From a virus, in the IMG/VR virus record IMGVR_UViG_3300025141_000127, positions 1 to 54,089 of that record: a stretch of DNA of 54,089 nt; one strand, given 5' to 3'. Position numbers and translations under genes: made by a program. Positions 1 to 24,780 of this stretch are shown one piece after another; position 1 is the stretch's first letter; each line of letters begins with the position of its first letter. The notes beneath the pieces were generated by a model. The model saw only the letters and a program-made list of their open reading frames with translations, did no database searches and was not told the origin of the DNA.

Positions 1-141
1 GAGGGCTACGAAAGTGATATCGCGGAGGAAGGCGGCCTCGAGTTTATGCTCGGCGCGATGAATTACGAGGCGGCGGCGGAGGGCGTGGTGGCGCGCGGTG
101 CGGATGACCTTATGCGCATCGCCCCTACGACAGTTCAGGCC
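1..141. repeat. Terminal overlap, left copy (matches 53949-54089)
   Basis: Bases 1-141 equal 53949-54089 except at 127 (A here, T there) and 138 (G here, T there). Both differences lie in the last 15 bases of the contig, as expected of low-coverage assembly ends. The overlap lies inside one open reading frame and joins it in frame, so it most likely marks circular closure of the assembly. A true short terminal repeat of the virion DNA cannot be excluded from sequence alone. Confidence 0.9.
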
Positions 142-3100
142 GCCCCGTACTGGCAGGCGTATTTGGACTGGCAGCGGCTGCACAAGGATAATATAGACGC
201 TGAGGGTAATCCTGACCTTGACCCGAAAGAGGGGCGACAAGCCTATGTCTTAAAGAGGGGGGCGGAAATCGCTCAAGACCCGGACCAGTTGGCTCTGGCG
301 TTAGCGAGCAACTACGACCCCGCCGGCAATATGATGGTCTATGGCGGACGGATTGCGTACCCAAATCTTCATGAGAGGAGCCCTATTCTGGCGGGCCTAC
401 TGAACGGCTCTCCGCGTCTTCTCCTCATGCTGATCGAGCCTGATGCGCTACAGGCGTCGTTCGCCTCGTTTGGCTTAGTCGGCTCTCTCGTAGGTTATGT
501 GGGTGGAAGGATTCCCAGAGCGGCAAGGCTTGCAGGGCGCATATCGAAGGCGGCCGGAAGAGTGGACGATGTGGTTCAGGGCGCTGATAGTGCGCAGGAG
601 GTCATGGATAAACTTAAAGCTCTCCAAGATGCTGACGCCACAGGTGCAACCACCTTTGTCTCCGGTCTGGTTGGAAGTGATACCGCGCGGCATATGAACG
701 GCAGGGGCGCGGACGACATCGCGGATGTCCTTGCCGCCGAGAACAGGGCTTTCGTGGAAGCGGGAAGGAAGGTTGAGGAGTCCGAGAAAGTGCTTAAAGG
801 TGCAATGGCTGACCTCAAGGATGCAAAGACGGCGGTGGAGAAGCAAGCCAGCGGCGTTCGTGCCGTCGAGGCAAACGTCGCGAAGAAAAGCGCGGAAGTA
901 GAAGAGGCTGTTGCAGAAATACAGGTAGCCCAGCGCGGGATCGATATTGTCTTAAAAGAAGATGTGGTCATAGATCAGGCGAAGACTTTCTCTGGGTGGT
1001 CGGAGTTTGACCCTGCGACCGTACTGGAGGGTGCTAAAGGGGGCAAGAGAGGTTTTAAGGGATTCGAGCCCGACAGCCCCTTCAACAACCCCGATATGTG
1101 GTTACCATCAACCTTTGCCCGCGCCGCCGATGGAGACCCCGGCGCGATAAAGATAATGAAGAGGAAACTCAACAAAGTCGCAGGCGAGCCCCCCTTCAAA
1201 CCAGCGGCGGCGAAGCGCGCCAAGCGTGCGAAGCTTCTGAAGGAGCAGGCCGAGAGGATCGAAAGTCTACGGAAGCTCCTTCGCAACTCTGACCTGAGTA
1301 CAGACCAGCAGACTATTAACCAGATCGTAGCGGCCGCAACAACCGAAGACGCGAACTTGGACACTATTGTCGCCGCCGCAGGTGAGTCATTTGCGAAGGT
1401 CGATGAAAAGTTGCGCGCGGCGGTAAACACTGTTGCGGATGCCGAGCGGAAGTTAGCGATTTCAGAGAGGCTGGCGGAGGTGCTCGCAGAGGGCGCGGCT
1501 CCGGGCGCTCTGCTTCGCGGGACAGGCCCTGCGCTTGAGCGGATGAAAGAAACCTCTGCTGCATTTCGCGCGGCGGCTGAAGTCGTGGCATCGTCGGAGG
1601 GTCAGCGTCTACTAAAAGACCTTGATCTCCACAAGGGTGGCCGCGATACAGCGGAGCTTCTTGAGGCCGAGCCCGAAAAAGTCGGACGGCTTCTGGAATT
1701 GGGGGCTGACGAGTCCGATGTTCTTGCAACCCTCGCGGCATCGGGAGATGGGGGCAGGCGCGTCGCCCTGTCCTTCCTAGTCTGGGCTAAGAGTGGCGAC
1801 GTACAACTGCGTGGTATGAAAAACATCAAGCAGTCCTTCAACAATATGAAGAAAAAGTATAGCCGTGATGGCACTCGGATGTTTTATAGGGATTACTTCA
1901 CGGACCCTCTCTTTCTGGTGCAGCAGAGCCTTGCTACGGTTGCCGACATTGTCCAAATGTCAGGATTAGCTTCGACTCGGGTCGGCGTGCTTGGCGGCCG
2001 CTTCGCGGCGAGGCTTCAGGAAATAGCGAATGGGCAGGCGCGAGAGACCGCCGCATGGTTTGGTGATTTGGGCATGATCGCCAAGCATTTTTCGGGGACC
2101 ACGGAAGCAGGTGCGCCCCTCGCCAAGGCCAAGGCTGTTGAGTTTATCGGTACGCAAAACCGAATCGAGCTTGGCGGGCCTCAAAAGGGCACCCGCGTCA
2201 ACAGTAATGAGCTTGGCGGCGACATCAACGACAACATCATGAACATCGCTATCGAGGGCTGGGCAGGCGTAGGGAAGACATTTGTCAAGACGAATAAGGG
2301 AGTGGACCTGACCGAGCACTACCTTGAAAAATCCGAGAGCATGTATGCGTACATAACCTCGTTTGTCAGGGATAGGATTGATGGAGATCTTGTCCCTAGG
2401 GTCGGTTCTGCAACTGTCACGTTTGGACGCTGGCTCAACAAGCCCTCTAAGGCAAACAAAAAGCTTACCAACGCAGAGTACATCCTGCGAAAGCCTGACC
2501 CCGAAGAGAGAATGAGGCTGCTCGCTAACGGGGCGATAGATTCCCTGAAGAGGAATGGCGTGGGCCAGTTTACGCCCAAGTCACTAGATGATGTTCCCGG
2601 TGCTATCCTTGCTTTAGACAATAAAACCTTTGGCCTGATGCTCGATAACATCGTTGGGGGGGCGACAGAGTTTGAAGTTGCCAAGCGCTTCGCAAACTTC
2701 GCGGGCCCCAACATTGGGCTGCGCAACCTCCGCGCGATGTCGAGTTGGATCGGAGCGCCTGAAGCGGGGAAGAAGGGCAAGAGCATACTCCCAAATCGAG
2801 AAACGATTGAGGTCGGCGACCGTGTTGCGCTGCGCTCGGACATGGACCCCATCCGGCGCGTGCTGGCAGGGAAGCCGCTGGAGGGCAAGGGCTGGGATGC
2901 GGGACGCCCCTTCAAGACAACAGAGGGCGCAACTCGCGGCCCCCAGTTTGGACTGGGTGCGGTGGAGCGCACTGAAATGCCCATGACTCTCGAGGTGCTG
3001 AAGGTTGAGAAGAAGGGCGGGCGCACGGTCGTTACAGTAACGGATTGGACGGGGACAACATCGACCCACGCCCTTGATGAGGTGACGAGGTTGGGGGGAG

Positions 3101-5181
3101 AACTGAATACCCTTGACTTGATAGACGGGTATCTGACTTATGGCCTAAGTTTGATGAGGGATACAGGAATCACGGCAAGGAAGTGGTTCATGCCCCGCGA
3201 CAGGTATGTACAGTTCGTCCTGCACTCGTATGATGAGGCCGGTAATCCTCGGATCATCCCAAAGGTTGAGTTGGGCGCGTGGTCGCAAGAGTTAGCGAAC
3301 AACGCCAAGAAACTAGATGTCACCCTTTCAGAGAAAATGGCCAACAACCCCCTGTCCGACACCATGAGGCAAACCTTTAAGGGCGCGCTCAACTGGTGGA
3401 AACAGAGCGTGCTATTCGGCGTGAGCGGCCTGCGCTCTATCGCCTTCTTTCTAACCAACGCGCAGGGCGACTTTGAGCGTATGGCTATTCAGGTTGGCTA
3501 CATAAAAGCTGCACAGCTTTCGATGTATGGCTCGCTCGGCTGGATACCTGTGATCGGCCCAATGGTGCAGGATGTCGCGCGGGCTGGCACCGCTGCGGCG
3601 TCAAAGGCTGTCGGAAAGCTCGGGGTGCCGGAGCCGACGATCTTCGGCTCGCAATACAACCGAGTTTTGGACGATGTTATGAGCGGCGTCAACGAGACTC
3701 GCACATACCAGAACTCGAAGGGAAAGTCGTTCACTATCAACCCCCGAGAGTTTATGCGTGAGGCGCGAAGGGCGGGTGTCAACGAAGACTACCTTCGCTC
3801 GGAGTCTCTGCGTGAGTTGCGGATCGCTGCCGACCAGCAGTTCAGGGGGATGATCCCCGCCCTCGGCGCTTCACGAAAGGGCGTGAGTATCCCCCAACTC
3901 TATCGTGATTGGTTTGGCTTCTTGCGCACCACCGCCGCTGTTGCGACGCGCCGGCAGAAGCTGATGCTCTACATGGACCTTCGCTTCAATGAGGGAGCGG
4001 ATGTCTCTAAGGCAACCGACGCAATGAACCGCAGCGTCTTTGACTACACCCTAAGCTCTAGTCCGTTTGAGGCGGCCTACCTTACACAGTGGTCCGCCTT
4101 CTACATCTACAAGAAGAATGCACTTCTAAACGATGCGGCCAACTTTCTTAGTTTTGACCGCACTCTCGCGCGGCACATCACCAACAGATTGGTGTTTGGC
4201 ACGCGCTACAAGAGAGCGCGCGCGCTCTTCCATTTTGAAACCATCATGCGTCCGCGCGAAGAGTATTCTCGGGATCAGATGATGGCCCTGACCGAAGCGG
4301 AGCACCCCCTTGAAAACCGCCCCGGTATCTTTAAGACCCCGGAGTACATGAGCGATGTGCTGATCACCCAGAGGGGCGCGCTATCGCTGGACCAACAGCG
4401 ACGGCAGGTGGACTTGGGCGCGACGCCGACAGTCTTCACTATCGGCCACGGATCCCCGTGGGCTGTGGCGCAAAACATGAACACCTTTGCCCTGATGCAA
4501 AAAACCCTCATAGGTAGCCTCGCGGCCGCATTCGTGGCCGACCTCCACCCCAACTCGACACAGATGAAGCGGGACTTGACCTCGTCGTTCCTCGACAACC
4601 TATTCCCAACGCACCAATCGATTGTCGGTGACAGTGTGCGTCGGATATTCGGTGTTCCTGTCCCCCACAGAAAGGACAGGCGAACCTTGAAAGATAACGA
4701 GGTAAAATTTATAAAGGCGGCGGGGTTGGACTTCCTTCTGGAAGAGGAGAAGGGCAGGTACGTCTCAAGCAATGCTGTTATAAACAACGGTATATTTGAC
4801 CCAGTCGCGTGGGCGGGCAAAGAAACAGAGTATGCAGGACTTCTGGGCACAACAATTTTTGGGGAAATGCCGGTTATCACACCAGAAGAAATCAAAGTCA
4901 AACAAGAAGTCTACAAACCACGGTTCCCCTTTAAGATCAAAGAACTGGGCATCGACTTCAATAAGTATAAGGATCTAGGCCCTGCTGGTATTCGCTTGGC
5001 GGCGGCTGATGAGTTAACAAAAGCCATGTACATTAACTTATTCAATGCCACCCGAGATACAAGCTGGACCGTGCAGCAGGCCAAGAGGGCACATGAGACC
5101 CGCATGGAGAGGGCGGGACGCAAAAGTTCTGCGGCCGAGAAAGAATACGCGAGGCAGAAAAGCCAAGAGGAAGAAGAATAA
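1..5181 (+). CDS. Large candidate internal virion/ejection protein, C-terminal 1726 residues (continues from 52593)
   Basis: The reading frame is open from base 1 and joins in frame to the CDS that starts at 52593 once the 141-bp terminal overlap is collapsed, giving one protein of 2,178 residues. No enzyme domain is recognised with confidence. After an N-terminal Ala/Glu-rich part comes a long coiled-coil-like stretch (roughly 720-1500 bp in this copy), then mostly helical sequence. Near 4000-4120 is a segment with the pattern FDYTLSSSPFE followed by aromatic-rich FYIYKKN, which I associate with large phage virion proteins of the polyvalent type. The tail end is rich in Lys/Glu. Its place after the nozzle and virion genes and before the holin-like gene fits an ejected internal virion protein of a podovirus. 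That role is inferred from size and position, not from homology. Confidence 0.7.
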   Translation, partial: EGYESDIAEEGGLEFMLGAMNYEAAAEGVVARGADDLMRIAPTTVQAAPYWQAYLDWQRLHKDNIDAEGNPDLDPKEGRQAYVLKRGAEIAQDPDQLALALASNYDPAGNMMVYGGRIAYPNLHERSPILAGLLNGSPRLLLMLIEPDALQASFASFGLVGSLVGYVGGRIPRAARLAGRISKAAGRVDDVVQGADSAQEVMDKLKALQDADATGATTFVSGLVGSDTARHMNGRGADDIADVLAAENRAFVEAGRKVEESEKVLKGAMADLKDAKTAVEKQASGVRAVEANVAKKSAEVEEAVAEIQVAQRGIDIVLKEDVVIDQAKTFSGWSEFDPATVLEGAKGGKRGFKGFEPDSPFNNPDMWLPSTFARAADGDPGAIKIMKRKLNKVAGEPPFKPAAAKRAKRAKLLKEQAERIESLRKLLRNSDLSTDQQTINQIVAAATTEDANLDTIVAAAGESFAKVDEKLRAAVNTVADAERKLAISERLAEVLAEGAAPGALLRGTGPALERMKETSAAFRAAAEVVASSEGQRLLKDLDLHKGGRDTAELLEAEPEKVGRLLELGADESDVLATLAASGDGGRRVALSFLVWAKSGDVQLRGMKNIKQSFNNMKKKYSRDGTRMFYRDYFTDPLFLVQQSLATVADIVQMSGLASTRVGVLGGRFAARLQEIANGQARETAAWFGDLGMIAKHFSGTTEAGAPLAKAKAVEFIGTQNRIELGGPQKGTRVNSNELGGDINDNIMNIAIEGWAGVGKTFVKTNKGVDLTEHYLEKSESMYAYITSFVRDRIDGDLVPRVGSATVTFGRWLNKPSKANKKLTNAEYILRKPDPEERMRLLANGAIDSLKRNGVGQFTPKSLDDVPGAILALDNKTFGLMLDNIVGGATEFEVAKRFANFAGPNIGLRNLRAMSSWIGAPEAGKKGKSILPNRETIEVGDRVALRSDMDPIRRVLAGKPLEGKGWDAGRPFKTTEGATRGPQFGLGAVERTEMPMTLEVLKVEKKGGRTVVTVTDWTGTTSTHALDEVTRLGGELNTLDLIDGYLTYGLSLMRDTGITARKWFMPRDRYVQFVLHSYDEAGNPRIIPKVELGAWSQELANNAKKLDVTLSEKMANNPLSDTMRQTFKGALNWWKQSVLFGVSGLRSIAFFLTNAQGDFERMAIQVGYIKAAQLSMYGSLGWIPVIGPMVQDVARAGTAAASKAVGKLGVPEPTIFGSQYNRVLDDVMSGVNETRTYQNSKGKSFTINPREFMREARRAGVNEDYLRSESLRELRIAADQQFRGMIPALGASRKGVSIPQLYRDWFGFLRTTAAVATRRQKLMLYMDLRFNEGADVSKATDAMNRSVFDYTLSSSPFEAAYLTQWSAFYIYKKNALLNDAANFLSFDRTLARHITNRLVFGTRYKRARALFHFETIMRPREEYSRDQMMALTEAEHPLENRPGIFKTPEYMSDVLITQRGALSLDQQRRQVDLGATPTVFTIGHGSPWAVAQNMNTFALMQKTLIGSLAAAFVADLHPNSTQMKRDLTSSFLDNLFPTHQSIVGDSVRRIFGVPVPHRKDRRTLKDNEVKFIKAAGLDFLLEEEKGRYVSSNAVINNGIFDPVAWAGKETEYAGLLGTTIFGEMPVITPEEIKVKQEVYKPRFPFKIKELGIDFNKYKDLGPAGIRLAAADELTKAMYINLFNATRDTSWTVQQAKRAHETRMERAGRKSSAAEKEYARQKSQEEEE

Positions 5182-9874: not shown

Positions 9875-10869
9875 CACACCCTCACCAAGTCCCAACCAAG
9901 GGACATAAAGTCATAGCCTTCCGGTAACACAGTCGTCTGCACAAATGCACCTGCGCACTCTACATTCCGAAGCGCCCGCATTATCCACCCAAGCGTGACG
10001 GGGTCATACGCCCTGTCAGGTAGGATGAAGAGTGACCTCGGGCCACTCAAGAGGGCACCCGCGAGCGCCACAGCAAGCGCCACAGTCTCCACACCCGAGG
10101 GGATAACCACCGTCCCATTAAGTGAGAGGCGAAACTCTCTCTCCGAAAGTTCGCAGAACTCAGCGCGCCCGATCTCCTCGGGCAGATACCTGTTGATGTG
10201 GGCCTCCACAGTAGAGAACGAGCCCCGGATGAACCGAAGAGCCTCGGCATCAATCTGCTTCTTCAACTCCTTAGCCCGACGAATGTCTTCTTCGAGCCCG
10301 TGCTTGTCGTTGATGATCTCCACGGGTGCCCCACCTCCATAGCCTTCATCGAAGAAGCCCTGCACCACGTTCAACTCGCGCAGGCGAGACTGGTGACTTC
10401 GGATCGCAGAGGCTGTGCCGCGTGACATCTCCAACAGGGCCTTGCGGTATGAACCATGATGCTTCACGCGCGCTTGCCAGCCGGGGATGTTCAGGTCAAT
10501 GGGGTGGTTATCATCGTCGATGTGCTCCAAAAGAAACTCCATCAATGACGCGGTACTTCCGGTGAGCGCATGCATAGCCATAGCAACTACGTTGTCAAAG
10601 CGGTCGCTGCGGTCACCCCAGCATACCTCCTCTCCGTCAACGTACAGAGTTGAGTGCAGCTTTGCCCCGCGCGGAGCGAGCCTCTCAAGCGCGCCCTTCT
10701 GCTTCACATCTTTACCCGCCGCATCGAAGGCGGTGTCGAATGCAGCCAACTCGATGGAGTGCATGATAGCGCTCTTGCCCGAGCCATTGCGGCCGATGAT
10801 CAGGTTGTAGGGCGAGTGCAAACTTAGGTCAATCCTGCCCTTCACATTAGAATGTATCTCATCAATCAT
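9874..10869 (-). CDS. SMC/RecF/Rad50-type ATPase
   Basis: 331 residues. Walker A is GRNGSGKS at 26-33 behind a YNLIIG strand, the usual head of RecF/SMC-type ATPases. A short helical insertion follows (residues about 125-235, only a small coiled coil), then PSGVETVALAVALAGALL as the signature-like segment and RSLFILPDRAYD as the Walker B region, where the usual DE is replaced by PD. Such proteins bind DNA and often work with a nuclease in repair or recombination. No adjacent nuclease partner is encoded. The start at 10869 is chosen for its GGGAGGACAA ribosome binding site. An in-frame ATG 18 codons upstream has none. Confidence 0.75.
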   Translation of the reverse strand: MIDEIHSNVKGRIDLSLHSPYNLIIGRNGSGKSAIMHSIELAAFDTAFDAAGKDVKQKGALERLAPRGAKLHSTLYVDGEEVCWGDRSDRFDNVVAMAMHALTGSTASLMEFLLEHIDDDNHPIDLNIPGWQARVKHHGSYRKALLEMSRGTASAIRSHQSRLRELNVVQGFFDEGYGGGAPVEIINDKHGLEEDIRRAKELKKQIDAEALRFIRGSFSTVEAHINRYLPEEIGRAEFCELSEREFRLSLNGTVVIPSGVETVALAVALAGALLSGPRSLFILPDRAYDPVTLGWIMRALRNVECAGAFVQTTVLPEGYDFMSLGWDLVRV

Positions 10870-11233: not shown

Positions 11234-13693
11234 CTAGACATCTTTCCAAGTTCTGCCAATCTCTGCGCTGGCCGTGAAGGTAACATCGAGACCCTCAACC
11301 CTGCGGGTCAGTGTCTCGTCAACGATCTCCTTGACCTCCTGCGCACGCTCTTCGGGCACCGACAGGAGCACAGCGTCATGTAGCTGATTGACCAGACCTA
11401 TCTTGTTGTCGAAGTCGAAGGGGATGTGCTGCTCCACCAACTCAAGCATAGACATGGCCACTACTGCAAAGCCTCCCGCCTGCACCCCGAAGTTCAGGAT
11501 GGCGTTGTAGTCCTCCTCCGCGAAGTAACGCCGGCGCATCCACACGCGCTCCTCGACGTACCCGTAGTCAGAGAAATGCTTTATTGTTTCTTTCCACCAC
11601 GCTTCAAACTCCGGGGCTTCTGACTTCCATCGGCGATGCAGCAATCGGATCTGCCGCAGGTCGTAGTGCGCGTAGAGCATGTTCCCTTCTTCGTCTTCCG
11701 CCCGCCCGCTGATTTCGTGGACTTTCGGGGCAGAGGCTCCGTACAGTGACGCGAAGCAGATGGTCTTGGCGAGGTTCCGCAGTTGCTTGAACTGGCCCGT
11801 GCCTTTGCCCATCTTGGTATCCGGCGCTCCCTCCGCTTTCCAAAACGCTTCTCCGAACATGAGGTCCGCAGTGAGGTTGTGGGGGTCGATCTCTTTCTTC
11901 TCGAAGGCGTCGAGGTAGTGCTGCGCTCCAGACAAGGCGGCTGCGAATCGTAGTTCAAGTTGATCGTAGTCCGCACCCACAAAGACGCAGCCTTCTGGAG
12001 GGATGAACATATCCCGTAGGTTGAAAGGTATGTTCTGAAAGTTTGGGTTAGAGGACGATAGTCTTCCAGTAACTGTTCCGTGTGAGTTGTAGTCGGGGTA
12101 GACATAGCCATCCTTTACGACACCCGCTCCGGGCGCGAACTTTCTAAGGTAAGTAGATAACAGCTTCTCCGCTCTACGGTAGAACCGAAGCGCCTGTAAA
12201 AATGCACGCTGCCTATCGTCCACTAAAGGGTTGATGGACAGGGACCGCAGGGAGGCTGCGCTAGTGGAGGGCTCACCTGACAGGGTGTACTCATGGGGAG
12301 GCAACGCCCACTTATCGAAGAGCAGGCGACGCAACTGGGTCGGTGAGTTGGGGTTGATGTCGGGCTGGATCTTGCTCAACTCCAGACGCCACTCATACGC
12401 GATCTCCGTCTGTTCCTCCTCATGCCAAGCGCGAGTCTCCTCGTCAATACGCATCCCCATACGACGCATGCCCGCACACAAGCTTTGGAGGCGCAGGTCT
12501 TTGTCGATCAGATGGGTCTGCTTTCTCTCCCAGACCATCTCCAACAAGGGCTGAATAATACGAGAGGTTACGGCCACGTCGGTAGCGCAGTATTGGTGAA
12601 GCTCCTCGTCGGTCTTCGCCGTCACACCCGCGTGGTCGGCCTTCCATGCCGGCACATCAGTAAGGACCGAGCCCACAAAGCCAAGGCTGTGACGGTACTC
12701 GGACGCGCCCAGCTTATGGAGTAGGATGGTATCGATCAGGGAGGTGGGGTTCCCTAGCTTATGAGACTCACACACCAGACGATCAAAGTAACCTGCATTG
12801 TGACCGGCAATACGAACCGACTCATCATCGAACACCTCACGAAGCAGACGTTTAATCTCTCGCTCATCCTCTGGCGAGTAGAATCTTGACACTCCGTCGA
12901 TACTTAGGAAGCCCAGTATTAAAACCTCGTTGTCCGTGCCGATCCCTATACAGCGAAGCTCGCAGTTCAGGGCGTCCACACCGTCGGTCTCCACGTCATA
13001 GGTCAGCACCCACTCGTTCTTGCGTGCGTCGTCAAAGAACTCACGCACCACATCGGGTGCCGGGTTGTATCTCACCACAGGGTCTTTCCAGCGTAGGGTG
13101 CCCTTGTGGTGACGCATTGCCTTCTGCACATCGCCATGCAGCACGGGCGTCAGATGCCTCTGTGCGGCGACCTGTGAGGGGTGATAGGTCGGGAGTATCT
13201 TGAGTCCCTCAACAAGCGTAGGGCCACCTCTGACGGCCTCGAGTGAAGGGTTGCCGGCGAGCATGAACTTGGTCGCGGTGGGGCCGCAGGTGATCACCGT
13301 CTTGTACCGGGCCATCTCCTCCTCGACGTGACCCCTGCACGCTTCGACGGGGGACATCGCAGGACGCCTGCCGGTGCCCGCACCTTGACGGTTCCTCTTC
13401 TTGAGTATCTGCATAAACATACGCGCGTCGTCTTTCGGCCACCGACACCCTACGACGTAGCCGTAGTCAACACCGTGGGCCTTGGTCCCCGCAGACTCGA
13501 GCGCATCCTTCATCGCGACGCCATGCTCGTCGGCCCATGCCCTTCCGAGAACGGACGCCTGCTTCGAGGGGGCGTCACCTAATACCAGAACATCGGAGCC
13601 GTTGTGTAAGAAGTCAACGCGCTCCCACTTACCCTCGGCCTGCCAGTATTTCCGAAGAGGGCAGCGCTCACACTTCGCCTTATCAAATCCCAT
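11234..13693 (-). CDS. UDG-like domain fused to 3'-5' exonuclease and family A DNA polymerase
   Basis: 819 residues, three domains. Residues 1 to about 190 resemble family 4/5 uracil-DNA glycosylases: Cys8, Cys11, Cys83 and Cys119 match the four iron-sulfur ligands, with LGDAPS at 38-43 (GEAPG in active enzymes) and a TYHPS motif near 170. Next is a proofreading exonuclease with DVETDG, HNAGYFD and YCATD. The polymerase has motif A DYDQLELR, motif B with K-x3-F-x3-YG, and motif C LHDAV, where the usual HDE Glu is Ala. The residue matching E. coli Pol I 762 is Phe, a state linked to virulent phages. It replicates the phage DNA. The glycosylase part may recognise rather than cut uracil. GGAGGACACGG sets the start, which overlaps the zinc-ribbon gene by 11 nt. 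Confidence 0.93.
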   Translation of the reverse strand: MGFDKAKCERCPLRKYWQAEGKWERVDFLHNGSDVLVLGDAPSKQASVLGRAWADEHGVAMKDALESAGTKAHGVDYGYVVGCRWPKDDARMFMQILKKRNRQGAGTGRRPAMSPVEACRGHVEEEMARYKTVITCGPTATKFMLAGNPSLEAVRGGPTLVEGLKILPTYHPSQVAAQRHLTPVLHGDVQKAMRHHKGTLRWKDPVVRYNPAPDVVREFFDDARKNEWVLTYDVETDGVDALNCELRCIGIGTDNEVLILGFLSIDGVSRFYSPEDEREIKRLLREVFDDESVRIAGHNAGYFDRLVCESHKLGNPTSLIDTILLHKLGASEYRHSLGFVGSVLTDVPAWKADHAGVTAKTDEELHQYCATDVAVTSRIIQPLLEMVWERKQTHLIDKDLRLQSLCAGMRRMGMRIDEETRAWHEEEQTEIAYEWRLELSKIQPDINPNSPTQLRRLLFDKWALPPHEYTLSGEPSTSAASLRSLSINPLVDDRQRAFLQALRFYRRAEKLLSTYLRKFAPGAGVVKDGYVYPDYNSHGTVTGRLSSSNPNFQNIPFNLRDMFIPPEGCVFVGADYDQLELRFAAALSGAQHYLDAFEKKEIDPHNLTADLMFGEAFWKAEGAPDTKMGKGTGQFKQLRNLAKTICFASLYGASAPKVHEISGRAEDEEGNMLYAHYDLRQIRLLHRRWKSEAPEFEAWWKETIKHFSDYGYVEERVWMRRRYFAEEDYNAILNFGVQAGGFAVVAMSMLELVEQHIPFDFDNKIGLVNQLHDAVLLSVPEERAQEVKEIVDETLTRRVEGLDVTFTASAEIGRTWKDV

Positions 13694-14581: not shown

Positions 14582-15514
14582 CTAAAAGTTGGTGAAAAAA
14601 TCATCCAACAGGTTGGTCTTGTAGCGGCGAAGTACCGCCCTATCAATGCCGTCGCTGACTCCCCAGCGAACGTGTCTTGGATCCTTGTCCTTGTACTTGG
14701 TTGAAATGCTGGCACCGTTTGCCTGCAACCACTTCTTAACCGAGCGTCGGTCCTTTGCCTCTGCCTTTATGATCCCTTGGCAAACCTTCTCGGCCAACTC
14801 GTCGAGCCACTCCAGTCCTTTGGCTCGGGGCAGGTCATAGCCTGTCGCTATCATGATCTCCCGAATGTTGGTGGGTGAGTAATCAGGCATCATCGAGAGG
14901 CGGCTACCCGTGATGTAGTTTGGGGTCGGCGCAGACTGGTAGACGTAGGGCCAGTTGCTTAGGGCGTCCTTGTCATACTTCATGCGGACCACGAAGTCTG
15001 ACATCGCCGGGATTTTCTCCGGCAGTTTCCAGCCTGTAATGGAGGGGTGTCCGGGGATGAACACCGTCTTGTTGTCACGGGTGACTTCGCGTGGCGGGGT
15101 CTCATGCATGACGAGGAAGCAGTGGCAGTCCGCGTTACGCACCCCGTCGCGCAGCTTGTACATCGTCTTGATCAAAACATCGAATGCCTTGAAGCCGGCG
15201 TTGCGTGGGTTGCTCTGGATGTGAATCAGTTCCGCATCGGCGATCAGGCTGAAGTCATCAATGATGATCGCGTTGTACTTCTTCGAAGCGCGGTGAACGA
15301 CATCGGTGATCTTGTCCACCGTCGTGTCGGGGGTGATCACCCAAGTGTCTGGCTCATGCCCGATGTAGTCAGAGCAGGAGGTTCCCCCCACCGACGTGAT
15401 CACAAGGGTCGAGCCGGCGAACGACTTGAGTAGGCCGAGCGTCTTGCCCACCTTGGGCGGCGCATAGATAATACCGAACACCTTCGGCAGGTCTTTGATC
15501 TTCGTCTTACTCAT
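14582..15514 (-). CDS. RecA-like recombinase/annealase ATPase (Sak4-like)
   Basis: 310 residues. Walker A APPKVGKT is at 18-25 right after a short strand, a Walker B region NAIIIDDFSLI is near 95, and a compact RecA core follows. This matches phage Sak4-type single-domain RecA proteins, which stimulate strand annealing with a partner SSB. An SSB-like gene follows and a Cas4-like nuclease precedes, the usual recombination triplet. The C-terminal 90 residues are an added basic region. GAGGAGGACACT sets the ATG, which overlaps the stop of the nuclease gene by 8 nt. DnaC-like loading is a less likely alternative. Confidence 0.75.
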   Translation of the reverse strand: MSKTKIKDLPKVFGIIYAPPKVGKTLGLLKSFAGSTLVITSVGGTSCSDYIGHEPDTWVITPDTTVDKITDVVHRASKKYNAIIIDDFSLIADAELIHIQSNPRNAGFKAFDVLIKTMYKLRDGVRNADCHCFLVMHETPPREVTRDNKTVFIPGHPSITGWKLPEKIPAMSDFVVRMKYDKDALSNWPYVYQSAPTPNYITGSRLSMMPDYSPTNIREIMIATGYDLPRAKGLEWLDELAEKVCQGIIKAEAKDRRSVKKWLQANGASISTKYKDKDPRHVRWGVSDGIDRAVLRRYKTNLLDDFFTNF

Positions 15515-16337
15515 AGTGTCCTCCTCGTTTGCAGGTCTGAAAGAAACGGCACTCGCCGAAGGTTGTTTGGCATGCGTGCTCTTGGTGACTCCCCGGCCAG
15601 CCGAAGGCTTCCCTTCCATCGAACTGGGCTATCATCCGCTCCGCCAACCTAACCGTCTCGGGGAACCGCGCAACAGACTTTTCGGCATACGGCAGAACTT
15701 TCCTCTTGAACGAAGAAACGGGCTTGCGGTCATCCCAGCCAATGAGGTTCAAGATGACGCCCCCGAACTGGTCGCCGTACATCTCACGCCCGATCATCTG
15801 CTGCCCGAGGAACTGGCCCGACAGGGCATACTTGTTGTGTGTCCTGTGCAGGATGGCGAAGCTCGTCTTGTGGTCCACGAAGTACACCTTGTCGTGGTGC
15901 TCCACGATCAGGTCGATGCGTGCCGTGTAGTCATACGCCCTCTCCGTGTGGTCCATGTGCGGGTCGAGCACCTGCGTCTCCACCTCTTTCTCCACGGCGA
16001 GGATGTGCCAGCTTGGAGTGAGGTACATCGCCGTGTACTGGTGGTACACCTCAATGACCTTGCGCCACCACTTGTCGTAGAGCGGATGGCCAGCCTCCAC
16101 GGCGCAGCGCGCTACCGCATCCTCGGGCGACAGGTACGAGGGCTCCTCGTCCTGCTGTTCACATTGGAGGTTGGCATAGTGGTGGGCGAGCGCAACGTGC
16201 ATGAGCGTGCCGCGAACCAACGCATCGGTTGGCTTCCACTCGCGCTCCTTGTTGAAGGCGTAGTAGCGGGGACACTTGAGCACGTTGGCCAGCCTGTGCC
16301 AGCCGGCGCGAGAGGGACCGGTGTCTAGGTATTGCAT
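15507..16337 (-). CDS. Cas4/RecB-type PD-(D/E)xK nuclease with probable iron-sulfur cluster
   Basis: 276 residues. An N-terminal SRAGWHRLANVLKCPRYYAF segment carries the first Cys. RGTLMHVALAHHY supplies the conserved His, ARIDLIVEHHDKVYFVDHKT has the D and D-x-K catalytic residues, and GQFLGQQ is the QxxxY-like motif. Three Cys near the C-terminus (HACQTTFGECRFFQTC) complete the Cas4/AddB pattern for a 4Fe-4S cluster. Such enzymes resect DNA ends to give ssDNA for recombination. There is no CRISPR array or cas1 nearby. The start is set by GGAGGACGC. The gene overlaps both neighbours. Confidence 0.85.
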   Translation of the reverse strand: MQYLDTGPSRAGWHRLANVLKCPRYYAFNKEREWKPTDALVRGTLMHVALAHHYANLQCEQQDEEPSYLSPEDAVARCAVEAGHPLYDKWWRKVIEVYHQYTAMYLTPSWHILAVEKEVETQVLDPHMDHTERAYDYTARIDLIVEHHDKVYFVDHKTSFAILHRTHNKYALSGQFLGQQMIGREMYGDQFGGVILNLIGWDDRKPVSSFKRKVLPYAEKSVARFPETVRLAERMIAQFDGREAFGWPGSHQEHACQTTFGECRFFQTCKRGGHYE

Positions 16338-16501: not shown

Positions 16502-16758
16502 GCGTTCTCCCACATGCGAAAGGCTTTGTCCAACAGGACCAGTTCGCGGATGACGGTCTTGAACGAGGCCCGCTTGTTGTTGCGGGCAGCGAGGTTGCGG
16601 ATCAACCAGCGCACGTTGGCTGGGCGACTCGCGTCTCGGCGGAACGCGGGGATGTCCATCGAGTGCAGAAGCTTCTTCACTTCGAGGGCACGCTCTTGTA
16701 TCTCTTCGCCCCGGATACGGTGGATGGTAGCCTTGTAGTCGATCGTCTCGTCACCCAT
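16498..16758 (-). CDS. Hypothetical protein, helical and basic
   Basis: 86 residues, mostly helical, with KATIHRIRGEEIQERALEVKKLL and then an Arg-rich stretch (RRDASRPANVRWLIRNLAARNNKRASF). No family recognised. The ATG at 16758 makes a TGATG overlap with the upstream gene and has GGGAGG ahead of it. Its TGA overlaps the next ATG, so it is embedded in a coupled gene string. The basic face suggests nucleic-acid contact, which is inference. Confidence 0.55.
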   Translation of the reverse strand: MGDETIDYKATIHRIRGEEIQERALEVKKLLHSMDIPAFRRDASRPANVRWLIRNLAARNNKRASFKTVIRELVLLDKAFRMWENA

Positions 16759-17096
16759 CACTCACCTCCCGCTTCGTAGGCGGCCCGCTCTGTTGGCAGG
16801 GTGATGAGGCAGTGGTCCCACAACTCCCGCTCGTACTGGTCCCAACGCCTGAAGATGAACACATCGACGACCCGACCCGGTACCACGCACTCCCGCAGGC
16901 GAGGCCACTCAAGGAAGTCGCCCTCGATTGAGTCTGCGTACCCGAGCCCAGTAACATCCGCCGCGTCATGCTGGTGAGCCTCGTCCCGGTAGGTCACGAA
17001 CTCAAAGGACCACGCGCCCTCTTCGCCCTCGAGTGTAGCCCGCACCGCATCGCGGCAAAACTGAATCATCTGCTTCTTCGTTGGCTTGCGCCCCAT
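16758..17096 (-). CDS. Hypothetical protein
   Basis: 112 residues: a basic N-terminus (GRKPTKKQMIQFCRDAVRATLEGEEG) and a mixed alpha/beta remainder rich in aromatic and acidic residues (GDFLEWPRLREC, VDVFIFRRWDQYERELWDHC). No motif recognised. GGAGGACAC lies directly upstream of the ATG. It is the first gene after the 78-bp gap behind the helicase, so it may begin a separate transcript. Confidence 0.55.
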   Translation of the reverse strand: MGRKPTKKQMIQFCRDAVRATLEGEEGAWSFEFVTYRDEAHQHDAADVTGLGYADSIEGDFLEWPRLRECVVPGRVVDVFIFRRWDQYERELWDHCLITLPTERAAYEAGGE

Positions 17097-22490: not shown

Positions 22491-22544
22491 GTCGTGTCCT
22501 CCAAGCAGGTGGTTTGTTCCTGCATCTGTCTAGTAATTGGTTGC

Positions 22545-22562
22545 GCCCCCCAAGTGGGGGGC
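22545..22562 (-). other. Stable hairpin with ACUU loop between two small genes
   Basis: In the 91-bp gap 22491-22581 the leftward strand has GCCCCCC-ACTT-GGGGGGC, a 7-bp stem. Unlike the other intergenic hairpins the loop is ACUU rather than UUCG, and it sits 19 nt after the stop. No U run or ribozyme core follows. It may stabilise the 3' end or weakly terminate. Confidence 0.55.
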
Positions 22563-22581
22563 AGGTTTGTCAAGAGAATGT

Positions 22582-22710
22582 CTAGGCCCCCATGTCGTAG
22601 ACGTGGTAGCGTCCGTCGAGTTCTTTCTCGATGCGAAGGTTGCTGTGGTGGTAGGCGTCGCAGAAGTCGATAGCCGGCCAGAGGTAGAGGAACTGGGCGA
22701 TGCTTTTCAT
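22582..22710 (-). CDS. 42-residue hypothetical protein
   Basis: Begins MKSIAQFLYLWPAIDFCDAYHH and ends RYHVYDMGA. It is aromatic-rich and too short for a domain call. The ATG lies in an ATGA overlap generated by the repeated GGnGGTGCnGCATGA junction, with GGGGGTG as ribosome binding site. The repeated junction is the main support that it is translated. Confidence 0.5.
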   Translation of the reverse strand: MKSIAQFLYLWPAIDFCDAYHHSNLRIEKELDGRYHVYDMGA

Positions 22711-23045
22711 GCCGCACCCCCTTCGAGTGCAGCCTTGACGAGGTGGTACGCTTCGGCGCTGTTGCCCCCGACGTTCCACGTCGTGACCTGAAAGCGGTTC
22801 ATGCCGCCGGGGCCGCAGTAGTTGGGACCGTTCTTCCAGTTGTACACCGTAGCCACGGTGCCGCAGGGGAACTCAATGTTCCATGACCAGTCCACCTGAT
22901 CGGGGCCCTCCACCCAGATGTGCTTGCCGAAGGCGAGGTACAGTTGGTTGTAGGTGATGTCGGTCAGGGTGCCCTGCTTGTAGGTGCCGTGGATGCAGAT
23001 GCCTTCGTCCTCGTTGTGCGTGAGGTAGGCTCGGTTCTTCGTCAT
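22707..23045 (-). CDS. Hypothetical protein ending GGAA
   Basis: 112 residues, beta-rich and aromatic: DEGICIHGTYKQGTLTDITY, then HIWVEGPDQVDWSWNIEF and NGPNYCGPGGMNRFQVTTWN. No family recognised. The ATG at 23045 follows AGGAGGACACACC. Its C-terminal Gly-Gly-Ala-Ala is encoded by the junction that also starts the next gene. Its 77-bp upstream gap holds nothing clear. Confidence 0.6.
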   Translation of the reverse strand: MTKNRAYLTHNEDEGICIHGTYKQGTLTDITYNQLYLAFGKHIWVEGPDQVDWSWNIEFPCGTVATVYNWKNGPNYCGPGGMNRFQVTTWNVGGNSAEAYHLVKAALEGGAA

Positions 23046-23122
23046 GGTGTGTCCTCCTGCCGGGTGGTTTGGTGCCGGCTCACCGTGGTTAACTGACTCA
23101 AGATGTAGGGGCAACAATATGA

Positions 23123-23269
23123 TCACAGCCACCGCTTCTGGCGGCAGGCTCGTCGGTCGGCCTCCTTCTTCTTGTCGGTGTGGTACCCCGCCTTGGCGGA
23201 GCGTGACTTCATGGCCTGCACGACGGCGTTGCGTCGCTTCGGTGGGGCCTGTCGTTTGCGCCTGCTCAT
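23123..23269 (-). CDS. 48-residue very basic protein
   Basis: About 40 percent Lys/Arg (SRRKRQAPPKRRN, KKKEADRRACRQKRW). Probably binds nucleic acid or a nucleic-acid-binding host factor. It starts at an ATGA junction preceded by GGAGGTGCAGC and is the last of four genes joined by that junction. No family recognised. Confidence 0.5.
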   Translation of the reverse strand: MSRRKRQAPPKRRNAVVQAMKSRSAKAGYHTDKKKEADRRACRQKRWL

Positions 23270-23364
23270 GCTGCACCTCCGAGTTGTGAATAGAAGTACA
23301 TTGTAACTGCCCAGCAGACGATCGCGAGGAGCCACGCGGCAACCTCGTAGCGTAGGTCTCTCAT
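23266..23364 (-). CDS. 32-residue membrane peptide ending GGAA
   Basis: A single hydrophobic span (VAAWLLAIVCWAVTMYFY) between a charged start (MRDLRYE) and the tail SQLGGAA. Both ends are ATGA junctions of the GGnGGTGCnGCATGA type. It is paralogous in start (MRD) to the preceding 40-residue peptide. Probably an inner-membrane peptide of unknown effect. Confidence 0.5.
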   Translation of the reverse strand: MRDLRYEVAAWLLAIVCWAVTMYFYSQLGGAA

Positions 23365-23483
23365 GCTGCACCCCCTTCGAGCAGCAGGCTCACAGTGAGC
23401 ACGGTCAGGGTCACCAGCCACGGGGTGCCGAAGATGAAGACGAAGGCGGCGACGGTCTCGTCGCTGAAGTAGGGGTCTCTCAT
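23361..23483 (-). CDS. 40-residue membrane peptide ending GGAA
   Basis: MRDPYFSDETVAAF is followed by a strongly hydrophobic span (FIFGTPWLVTLTVLTVSLLL) and EGGAA. It is coupled at both ends by ATGA junctions. With the next peptide it forms a pair of tiny membrane proteins, which in phages often perturb the host membrane or exclude superinfection. That role is speculation here. Confidence 0.5.
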   Translation of the reverse strand: MRDPYFSDETVAAFVFIFGTPWLVTLTVLTVSLLLEGGAA

Positions 23484-24088
23484 GCCGCACCTCCAAGCTG
23501 CAAGAACTGCGAGAGGTGGAGCGCCGCCGCGTGGTAGGACCGGCTCGTGTTCAGCGAGACCTGCTGTAGCCGCCGCAGGATCTCCTCCGCCTCGTCCATG
23601 TCTCCTCGGTTGCGGAAGTCCACGATGTCCTGCGCCAGCTTGCGGACGGTGGTCTGCACCGTACCCCTCGCGCACAACCACCAGAACTCCCGGTCATAGG
23701 TACGCTCGCGCTGAAGCTGGCCCTCCCTCACGGTTGCCCGGAACCACTTGTTGTCCACGTCATCTATGCCACGCTCCCGAAGGTCAAGCAGGACCGCCCA
23801 CTGGGAGAGACACCACGCAACAGCATCCCTGTCCTCTCGGTTGTAGTCCCGAACTACGAACACCATCCTTTCGTCCTCGACGTAGGCCAAGGGATGCCCC
23901 TCGTCCCCGTGAGTGGGGTGCTCGTAGATGCGCACGCCGTAGCGGGAGTAGAGCAGGGTGGAGTTCAGCCTAAGCTCGTCTCCACTCCACTTTGTGGTGG
24001 GCAGATCCCAGAAGTCGCAGAAGTAGCGGCCGTCCGCAAGGGAGGGGTACAGGTACGGGACGTAGGTTGTGTTTGTGTCGCGGTTCAT
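23480..24088 (-). CDS. Hypothetical protein ending GGAA
   Basis: 202 residues. The N-terminal half is strand-rich (NTTYVPYLYPSLADGRYFCDFWDL, SRYGVRIYEHPTHGDEGHPLAYVEDERMVFVVRD). The C-terminal half is helical and charged (REFWWLCARGTVQTTVRKLAQDIV, EAEEILRRLQQVSLNTS). No family recognised. The ATG at 24088 is fixed by the ATGA junction and GGGAGGTGCAGC. It is the largest member of the junction-linked string. Confidence 0.6.
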   Translation of the reverse strand: MNRDTNTTYVPYLYPSLADGRYFCDFWDLPTTKWSGDELRLNSTLLYSRYGVRIYEHPTHGDEGHPLAYVEDERMVFVVRDYNREDRDAVAWCLSQWAVLLDLRERGIDDVDNKWFRATVREGQLQRERTYDREFWWLCARGTVQTTVRKLAQDIVDFRNRGDMDEAEEILRRLQQVSLNTSRSYHAAALHLSQFLQLGGAA

Positions 24089-24780
24089 GCTGCACCTCCC
24101 TGCGCGCTGCGCACAGGCTCGGCGATGACCCTGCCCACGGTGACGACATCGCCCTGCTCCAACGCAGCGATGTACGCGAAGCGGGAGAGGTTGCACCGGC
24201 AGTCGTCCTCGCTGGCGGCGATGTAGCTTGAGCCCTCATACCGATTGTGGATGCGCACGACGGCGGCGCCCTTCGTGATGGGCAGGAAGGACACGCGCCC
24301 AACCATGCCCCCATCCGTGTCAGCCATGCTGGGGCGAAGGCCGGAAGAGAGAGCCTGCTGCACGCAGGTCCAGACCTCGTCGGTCATGTCGGAGCAGTGC
24401 TTGCGGAAGTGGCCTCGGTTGCTGGTGACGATGGTGTGCGGGGTGGGTCCGCAGGTGGCGGGGTAGGTGATCGCCACCTCATGGTCAGCGTAGTCGAAGG
24501 CCTCTTCGATCACCGCGCCCGTGGCGTGGGCGATGGTAGGTCCGACCTCCTCAAGTGCTGCCCGGTACATCGCCTCCTTCGGGGCGGCCTCGTCCACCTC
24601 CTCGGTGGTGAGCGCACCGTACAGGTCGTCCATCGTGGCAGGGGAGCGGGGATCGTGACCGTAGGTGAAGAGCAGGTCACGCAGACCCTCGGTCAGGTGG
24701 ACGTTCACGTCGTCGTGGATGCGTTGGGCGCACGCGCCCTCGGCGAAGTCAAGTTCAATGGTGAAGCGGATTTTTTTCAT
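24085..24780 (-). CDS. Hypothetical protein ending GGAA
   Basis: 231 residues. Starts MKKIRFTIELDFAEGACAQRIHDD, with a middle segment ATCGPTPHTIVTSNRGHFRKHCSD and C-terminal strands AAVVRIHNRYEGSSYIAA and GDVVTVGRVIAEP. No family recognised. GAGAGGACACC sets the ATG. It heads the run of five genes whose boundaries use the GGAA junction. Confidence 0.6.
   Translation of the reverse strand: MKKIRFTIELDFAEGACAQRIHDDVNVHLTEGLRDLLFTYGHDPRSPATMDDLYGALTTEEVDEAAPKEAMYRAALEEVGPTIAHATGAVIEEAFDYADHEVAITYPATCGPTPHTIVTSNRGHFRKHCSDMTDEVWTCVQQALSSGLRPSMADTDGGMVGRVSFLPITKGAAVVRIHNRYEGSSYIAASEDDCRCNLSRFAYIAALEQGDVVTVGRVIAEPVRSAQGGAA

Follow-up and report, generated by a model that had tools for sequence, protein, structure and literature searches.

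Neighbouring minus-strand genes of a virus are joined by a 15-nt sequence, GGnGGTGCnGCATGA, which closes one protein with Gly-Gly-Ala-Ala and at the same time opens the next gene. The sequence was found in the 54,089-base stretch of viral DNA analysed here (IMG/VR record IMGVR_UViG_3300025141_000127, hereafter the window). This joint is real and non-random. On balance, we favour the view that it couples genes in translation and also serves as a point of gene exchange, some of the changes having arisen through annealing recombination between its copies.

Results

Anatomy of the joint and the genes that it links

The window contains five exact copies of GGnGGTGCnGCATGA, all of them on the minus strand, all at -4 stop/start overlaps and none elsewhere. 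Dinucleotide shuffles of the window (n = 100) yielded no copy. A repeat at five gene boundaries had been claimed in a first-pass annotation, which placed it by the four ATGA bases of each copy, and the repeat is confirmed. Equally borne out is the dual role that had been assigned to it, Gly-Gly-Ala-Ala and a stop for the upstream gene together with an in-frame Shine-Dalgarno sequence and the next ATG for the downstream gene. In the upstream frame the 15 nt read GGN GGT GCN GCA TGA. For the downstream gene, GGAGG or GGGGG is followed by six bases and then ATG. The window copies vary at two wobble positions only (A or G) and the encoded amino acids are constant in all five.

Joints J1 to J4 connect g1 to g5 in an unbroken chain, and J5 connects g6 to g7, with 77 bases separating g5 from g6. 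J1 (g1/g2, 24085..24099) and J4 (g4/g5, 23266..23280) both read GGAGGTGCAGCATGA, J2 (g2/g3, 23480..23494) reads GGAGGTGCGGCATGA, J3 (g3/g4, 23361..23375) reads GGGGGTGCAGCATGA and J5 (g6/g7, 22707..22721) reads GGGGGTGCGGCATGA. Beyond the 15 nt, J3 and J5 have six additional upstream bases in common, and J2 and J3 six additional downstream bases.

All seven genes lie on the minus strand in the neighbourhood of a family A DNA polymerase, a helicase and a DUF932 protein. The first, g1 (24085..24780), encodes 231 aa of unknown function, and g2 (23480..24088, 202 aa) shows a weak match to phrog_11770, likewise of unknown function. The products of g3 (23361..23483, 40 aa) and g4 (23266..23364, 32 aa) appear membrane-like by eye, and g6 (22707..23045) encodes 112 aa. 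At the five overlaps these proteins end, in gene order, with AQGGAA, QLGGAA, LEGGAA, QLGGAA and LEGGAA directly before the stop. The basic 48-aa protein of g5 (23123..23269) and the 42-aa protein of g7 (22582..22710), which close their chains, carry no GGAA tail. The earlier statement that unrelated proteins share one tail applies to most of the upstream proteins, which are dissimilar, but not to g3 and g4, which are alike: both are tiny, both start with MRD and six bases past ATGA are common to them.

Frequency of the joint

Among the -4 overlaps between likely real genes of the window, as selected by us, 5 of 12 bear the joint. Background rates were taken from other phage contigs after the seed match that had fetched each contig was removed. 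By a strict rule, which also loses true joints (it kept 4/5 in the window and 0/5 in G001, the sister phage described below), the joint accounts for 11 of 717 -4 overlaps (3/403, 8/274 and 0/40); by a looser rule it accounts for 21 of 1,401. At the strict background rate, which is approximate because most contigs had been chosen for containing one joint, the probability of at least 5 in 12 is 6e-7. In whole genomes (24 others, one bacterial family; G010, a genome picked for its joints, is left out of the count) 25 copies occur in 105 Mb, as compared to 5 in the 54 kb of the window.

The joint is not the general ribosome-binding site of this phage, since the other early starts use GGAGG followed by AC or vary, and do so without TGCRGC. 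On the minus strand between 10 and 24 kb, ten other starts have GGAGG with AC next (10869, 11224, 13693, 15514, 16337, 17096, 21573, 22225, 22490 and 23045) and five are variable (10923, 16758, 19917, 20167 and 21394); TGCRGC was found at none of these 15. Translation nevertheless accounts for part of the pattern, because GGnGGTG matches the 16S rRNA end and ATGA is a common overlap. By itself the pattern is frequent as single copies among the matches listed, and one copy therefore carries little meaning.

Comparison with a sister phage

The first-pass annotation had suggested examining gene order in relatives for insertions or deletions bounded by this sequence; the sole close relative found does show gene gain or loss of this kind. 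This relative, G001 (IMGVR_UViG_3300030098_003801, 52,804 bases), is about 84% identical in the joint region. Its gene order is g1'-joint-g3'-joint-X1-X2-g4'-joint-g5', and then g6'-joint-g7'. As compared to the window, g2 is absent and two additional genes, X1 and X2, stand between g3 and g4; no match to g2 was found in G001, and none to X1 or X2 in the window. The X1/X2 and X2/g4' boundaries in G001 read GGAGGTGACGCATGA and give the tail GGDA.

BLAST blocks between the two phages cover window positions 24484-24085, 23494-23360 and 23375-19910, with edges within J1, J2 and J3. A block ends at J1, similarity resumes at J2, and at J3 one block ends and the next one starts. At all four ends of the differing segments, DNA similarity breaks or resumes within the joint, and identity per 100 nt up- and downstream of the shared joints is 81/30, 24/96, 96/23 and 39/97%. 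J4 stands between the same genes in G001, and the G001 boundary orthologous to J5 reads GGAGGTGCAGCATGA. By our own count, neighbours have changed at 3 of 5 joints versus 0 of 7 other -4 overlaps (Fisher p 0.045); the seven other accepted -4 overlaps of the window all lie inside continuous alignment to G001. The DNA of g3 and g4 is 97% identical to G001 versus 84-86% in the long early-region blocks, which for genes so short is only a hint of a recent exchange. These gene comparisons rest on alignments, the simple gene caller having taken wrong strands in places.

The same genes with unrelated junctions in relatives had been named as the sign of a mere ribosome-binding-site constraint. Such a case is absent at the five sites, but it does occur at one further boundary on the minus strand (16756..16770), where the same two genes lie on both sides of GGGAGGTGAGTGATG in the window and of a joint in G001 (10247-10261). 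Here identity ends directly past GGGAGGTG and the N-terminus of the downstream protein differs; in the window the orthologue at 16758 has a protein ending in GGE. This ending bears on the idea that the Gly-Gly-Ala-Ala tail itself is selected, for example as a weak C-terminal degron making small proteins short-lived. Ala-Ala ends can be ClpXP signals, and amino acids that stay constant in 5/5 window copies over varying wobble bases would agree with such selection. Tails are missing, however, from the chain-ending g5 and g7, and the two GGDA boundaries of G001, one of them before g4', depart from the pattern as does GGE. The degron role suggested in the first-pass annotation is accordingly unsupported, and we regard selection on the tail as very improbable.

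Other relatives were scarce. Searches with g1, the DUF932 protein and g5 returned G001 only, and no relative of g2 was found. Relatives of the helicase mostly stop short of the joint region. Among nine helicase-linked records examined, joints occur in G001 only; GGnGGTGnnGCATGA has no copy in the eight others, most of which are too fragmentary to cover the region. One of them, L156, extends 10 kb before its helicase and has the joint nowhere in the record. The cluster is therefore not an ancient, fixed trait of this group. Phage records gave no near match and distant DUF932 matches only, and no relative of the helicase was found in bacterial genomes.

Joints in other contigs and genomes

Scanning contigs for the joint preceded by five upstream bases (TCGAA) gave 67 stretches. 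With G001 excluded, the joint occupies two or three -4 overlaps in 14 of 66 contigs according to the ORF rule. Joint-bounded gene change was seen in three groups of phage or bacterial contigs besides the pair of window and G001. In two of them (L203/L208/L226 and L213/L221/L224) a common upstream gene, 83-90% identical per 100 nt in the aligned pairs, is followed by the joint and then by unrelated genes, and in the converse case one downstream gene, 92-98% identical, comes after unrelated genes. Identity per 100 nt up- and downstream is 90/29, 89/27, 36/92 and 44/98% in the former group and 90/18 and 83/27% in the latter. In the third group, two genes are common to L240 and L243, and only one of these contigs has a 92-aa gene between them, bounded by two joints. 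The same short sequence is thus present at the edges of exchanged segments, with identity switching within the joint in four groups. The upstream gene of L221 has one match in E. coli genomes and one in phage records, too few for a breakpoint survey.

Tandem pairs were sought in the genome collection, which gave 20 loci; by our rule, 16 of them have at least two copies at -4 overlaps, three have one copy and one has none. Runs of three or four copies are present at 4 of the 16 loci (a betaproteobacterial MAG, a streptomycete, Undibacterium and a coriobacterial MAG). In the Streptomyces contigs L241, L247 and L251 the genes following the joint start alike, for example with MNGMLTLDGMAAPLRVLRLL and MSGNLTLDDVAVPLRALRLL; similar genes after joints in three streptomycetes indicate that the joint is not limited to obvious phage genes.

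L250, a Coriobacteriales contig, has four joints, three of which precede genes that begin alike (MRPRYYRAGYF, MRDRWYRAQYF and MRDDRIRIRYF), suggesting a tandem duplication that included the joint. Local duplication could be extended to the window: a small gene would have been copied in tandem with its joint and the copies would have diverged, leaving the joints as the best-kept part. Besides L250, it is in line with g3 and g4, which start with the same three residues and have ATGAGAGACC in common. The remaining proteins of the chain, however, are of different lengths and look dissimilar in sequence by eye, and G001 differs from the window through unrelated inserted genes. We consider duplication an improbable origin of the window joints.

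Pooled comparison and convergence

Neighbour change was also counted in pooled contig pairs, excluding pairs with the joint on one side only or with the variant GGnGGTGnnGC. Where the upstream gene is the same, the neighbour has changed in 38 of 118 joint pairs versus 160 of 619 other -4 pairs (p 0.17); where the downstream gene is the same, the figures are 7 of 87 versus 278 of 741, in the opposite direction. The test is weak, given that the pairs are interdependent and that chance frames make up many of the 'other' overlaps. It is no help to the recombination claim. The recombinational joint proposed in the first-pass annotation finds partial support, namely in the joint-bounded gene changes of the sister phage and the three groups, but not in the pooled data, where neighbour change is no higher at joints.

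Of 40 -4 overlaps with GGnGGTG in frame (seeds removed), 23 end in GGAA, often in unrelated phages. Convergence is likely part of the story, alongside descent. It is also possible, and we give this view real if lesser weight, that convergent translation constraint is the whole of it: -4 overlaps with an extended in-frame Shine-Dalgarno sequence would drift to GGnGGTGCnGCATGA, genes would turn over independently of homology under selection for clean boundaries, and the joint would have no part in exchange. The frequency of GGAA among in-frame overlaps, the presence of joints in Streptomyces contigs as well as unrelated phages, and the lack of an excess of pooled neighbour change at joints all agree with it. 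Several observations are less easily accommodated. The joint is rare in whole genomes, yet 4 of the 20 loci of the tandem-pair search go beyond a pair to three or four consecutive copies; the joint of the window is unlike its free ribosome-binding sites; J3 resembles J5 upstream and J2 downstream beyond the 15 nt; and the sister pair changed neighbours at joint boundaries only.

The joint had also been described as possibly mobile. This finds no support, as no inverted repeats have arms at joints and none of the scanned proteins is named as a transposase or integrase. The inverted repeats considered for a mobile element were five pairs in 22500-24300, and 0/5 have their arms at joints. Nor does the scanned subset of window proteins include a name indicating the recombinase or transposase of a mobile element.

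Discussion

We favour a joint that combines gene coupling with gene exchange. GGnGGTG is a Shine-Dalgarno sequence that is read in frame as Gly-Gly, with GCn-GCA supplying both Ala-Ala and the spacing. ATGA combines stop and start, and by analogy with other published gene pairs a ribosome ending one gene could restart on the next. In E. coli, removal of the intragenic Shine-Dalgarno sequence reduced reinitiation in four of five gene pairs, according to the portion of the report cited (PMC6728339). Within 15 bases the joint contains a ribosome-binding site, a stop, a start and a small tail, so that a gene between two copies could be gained, lost or replaced with frame and expression intact. Some of these changes most likely arose by annealing recombination between joint copies, probably aided by a Sak4-like protein and an exonuclease. 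A candidate recombinase, a Sak4-like single-strand annealing protein, is encoded on the minus strand at 14582..15514 (phrog_124, E 2.1e-10), adjoined by an exonuclease at 15507..16337, also on the minus strand (phrog_1218, E 1.2e-12), and because both are encoded recombination at short homology is plausible. Phage Rad52-like recombinases have been assigned a main role in recombining regions that share short homology only (PMC3945230, whose main text does not mention Sak4). Recombinant products might be retained as they would be immediately translatable. The shared tail would be a by-product of the way the ribosome-binding site is read and no signal itself, because the chain-ending g5 and g7 lack GGAA.

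Several points weigh against this mechanism. Breakpoints at gene boundaries are expected from selection alone, and 15 bases are short. One close relative was found, L156 has no joint, and the boundary at 16756..16770 keeps its genes but not the joint. A broader claim, that GGnGGTGCnGCATGA is a convergent and universal 15-nt joint serving as ribosome-binding site, stop, start and harmless tail together, arranged in tandem in phages and prophages of several bacterial phyla and used by phage annealing recombinases to swap small accessory genes without a mobile element, seems doubtful to us.

The nin region of lambdoid phages is the closest known counterpart. It was described as a chain of genes interlinked by ATGA (Kroger & Hobom 1982, as cited in PMC8022706) and, from the account in PMC8022706 as far as it is cited here, it resembles the joint region in its packed small genes, its ATGA overlaps and a gene content that varies among relatives. 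Consecutive ATGA overlaps are present in the window (five, in the g1-g5 and g6-g7 chains), and gene content differs at overlaps through the presence or absence of g2 and X1-X2. Nin homologues were not found, as no named nin family was obtained for g1, g2, g3, g5, g6, X1 or X2. In lambda itself (J02459) three nin overlaps end with Ala-Ala and one with Gly-Ala, by way of GC[TC]GCATGA or GGCGCATGA. Unlike in the window, the lambda Shine-Dalgarno sequence is in another register (RAA, EAA, EAA and EGA instead of GGAA) and the boundaries are less uniform.

Short conserved sequences at module boundaries have been proposed to allow homologous exchange in phage mosaicism (Clark et al. 2001; Susskind & Botstein 1978; both as cited in PMC3029335). 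From that summary, the joint is like them in being short, conserved and located at boundaries of exchanged segments; it differs in lying within coding sequence and setting a common protein tail. Start-Associated Sequences of Cluster K mycobacteriophages are likewise short repeats at the ribosome-binding sites of several unrelated genes in the non-structural half, but they typically lie 3-7 bp ahead of the start codon, and no common coded tail is described in the passages cited (PMC3203893). A 13-bp Start-Associated Sequence, GGGATAGGAGCCC, has one match with two mismatches in the window versus 1.74 expected, which is not beyond chance. Termination-reinitiation at overlapping genes shares the ATGA overlap and the intragenic Shine-Dalgarno sequence with the joint; it is a general translation mechanism, and the cited part of PMC6728339 is silent on a repeated joint or gene exchange. 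The open-access literature searched for joint or boundary sequences yielded no description of a GGAA joint. This kind of joint is known from lambda and its relatives; in its sequence, its coded GGAA tail and its recurrence among unrelated phages, the present one looks like a variant of which we found no description.

Whether clean cassette cuts at gene ends reflect short homology or random breakage followed by selection is an old dispute. As the joint is short, uniform, located within coding sequence and synonymously changeable with the Shine-Dalgarno sequence intact, both views become directly testable. For annotators it carries a warning, since a common C-terminus can be a translated ribosome-binding site instead of a sign of homology.

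Other features of the window

Directly upstream of the joint chain is a run of hammerhead ribozymes on the minus strand (27018-26966, 26711-26659, 26135-26081 and 25275-25220), which lie in the leaders of successive small genes. Two of them match Rfam RF00008 (E 8e-5 and 2e-6), under the gathering score. A motif script found the first hammerhead again and two more, as well as three in G001 and one in L156; G001 gave no match to RF00008 at the gathering score, and the hammerhead shape is not present in all minimum-energy folds. Hammerhead clusters flanking single prophage genes have already been described (PMC3088659, in the part cited).

Two genes, of 311 and 124 aa, occur in swapped order in the sister phage (window 26223-24816 against 1116-2338 of L006). 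The same hammerhead leader precedes the 124-aa gene in the window and g1' in the relative. Hammerhead leaders would thus seem to be exchange boundaries of a second kind. Alignment of window 17094-17090 with L006 9646-9938 shows about 290 additional bases immediately behind the start codon in the sister phage, which give the protein an N-terminal extension. This change likewise begins at a ribosome-binding site and start.

On the plus strand, 46-5181 is a 1,711-aa open frame without a PHROGs match at E 0.001. At its N-terminus the family A DNA polymerase (11234-13693, minus strand) has a domain resembling uracil-DNA glycosylase (Pfam UDG 1e-12, DNA_pol_A 2e-54).
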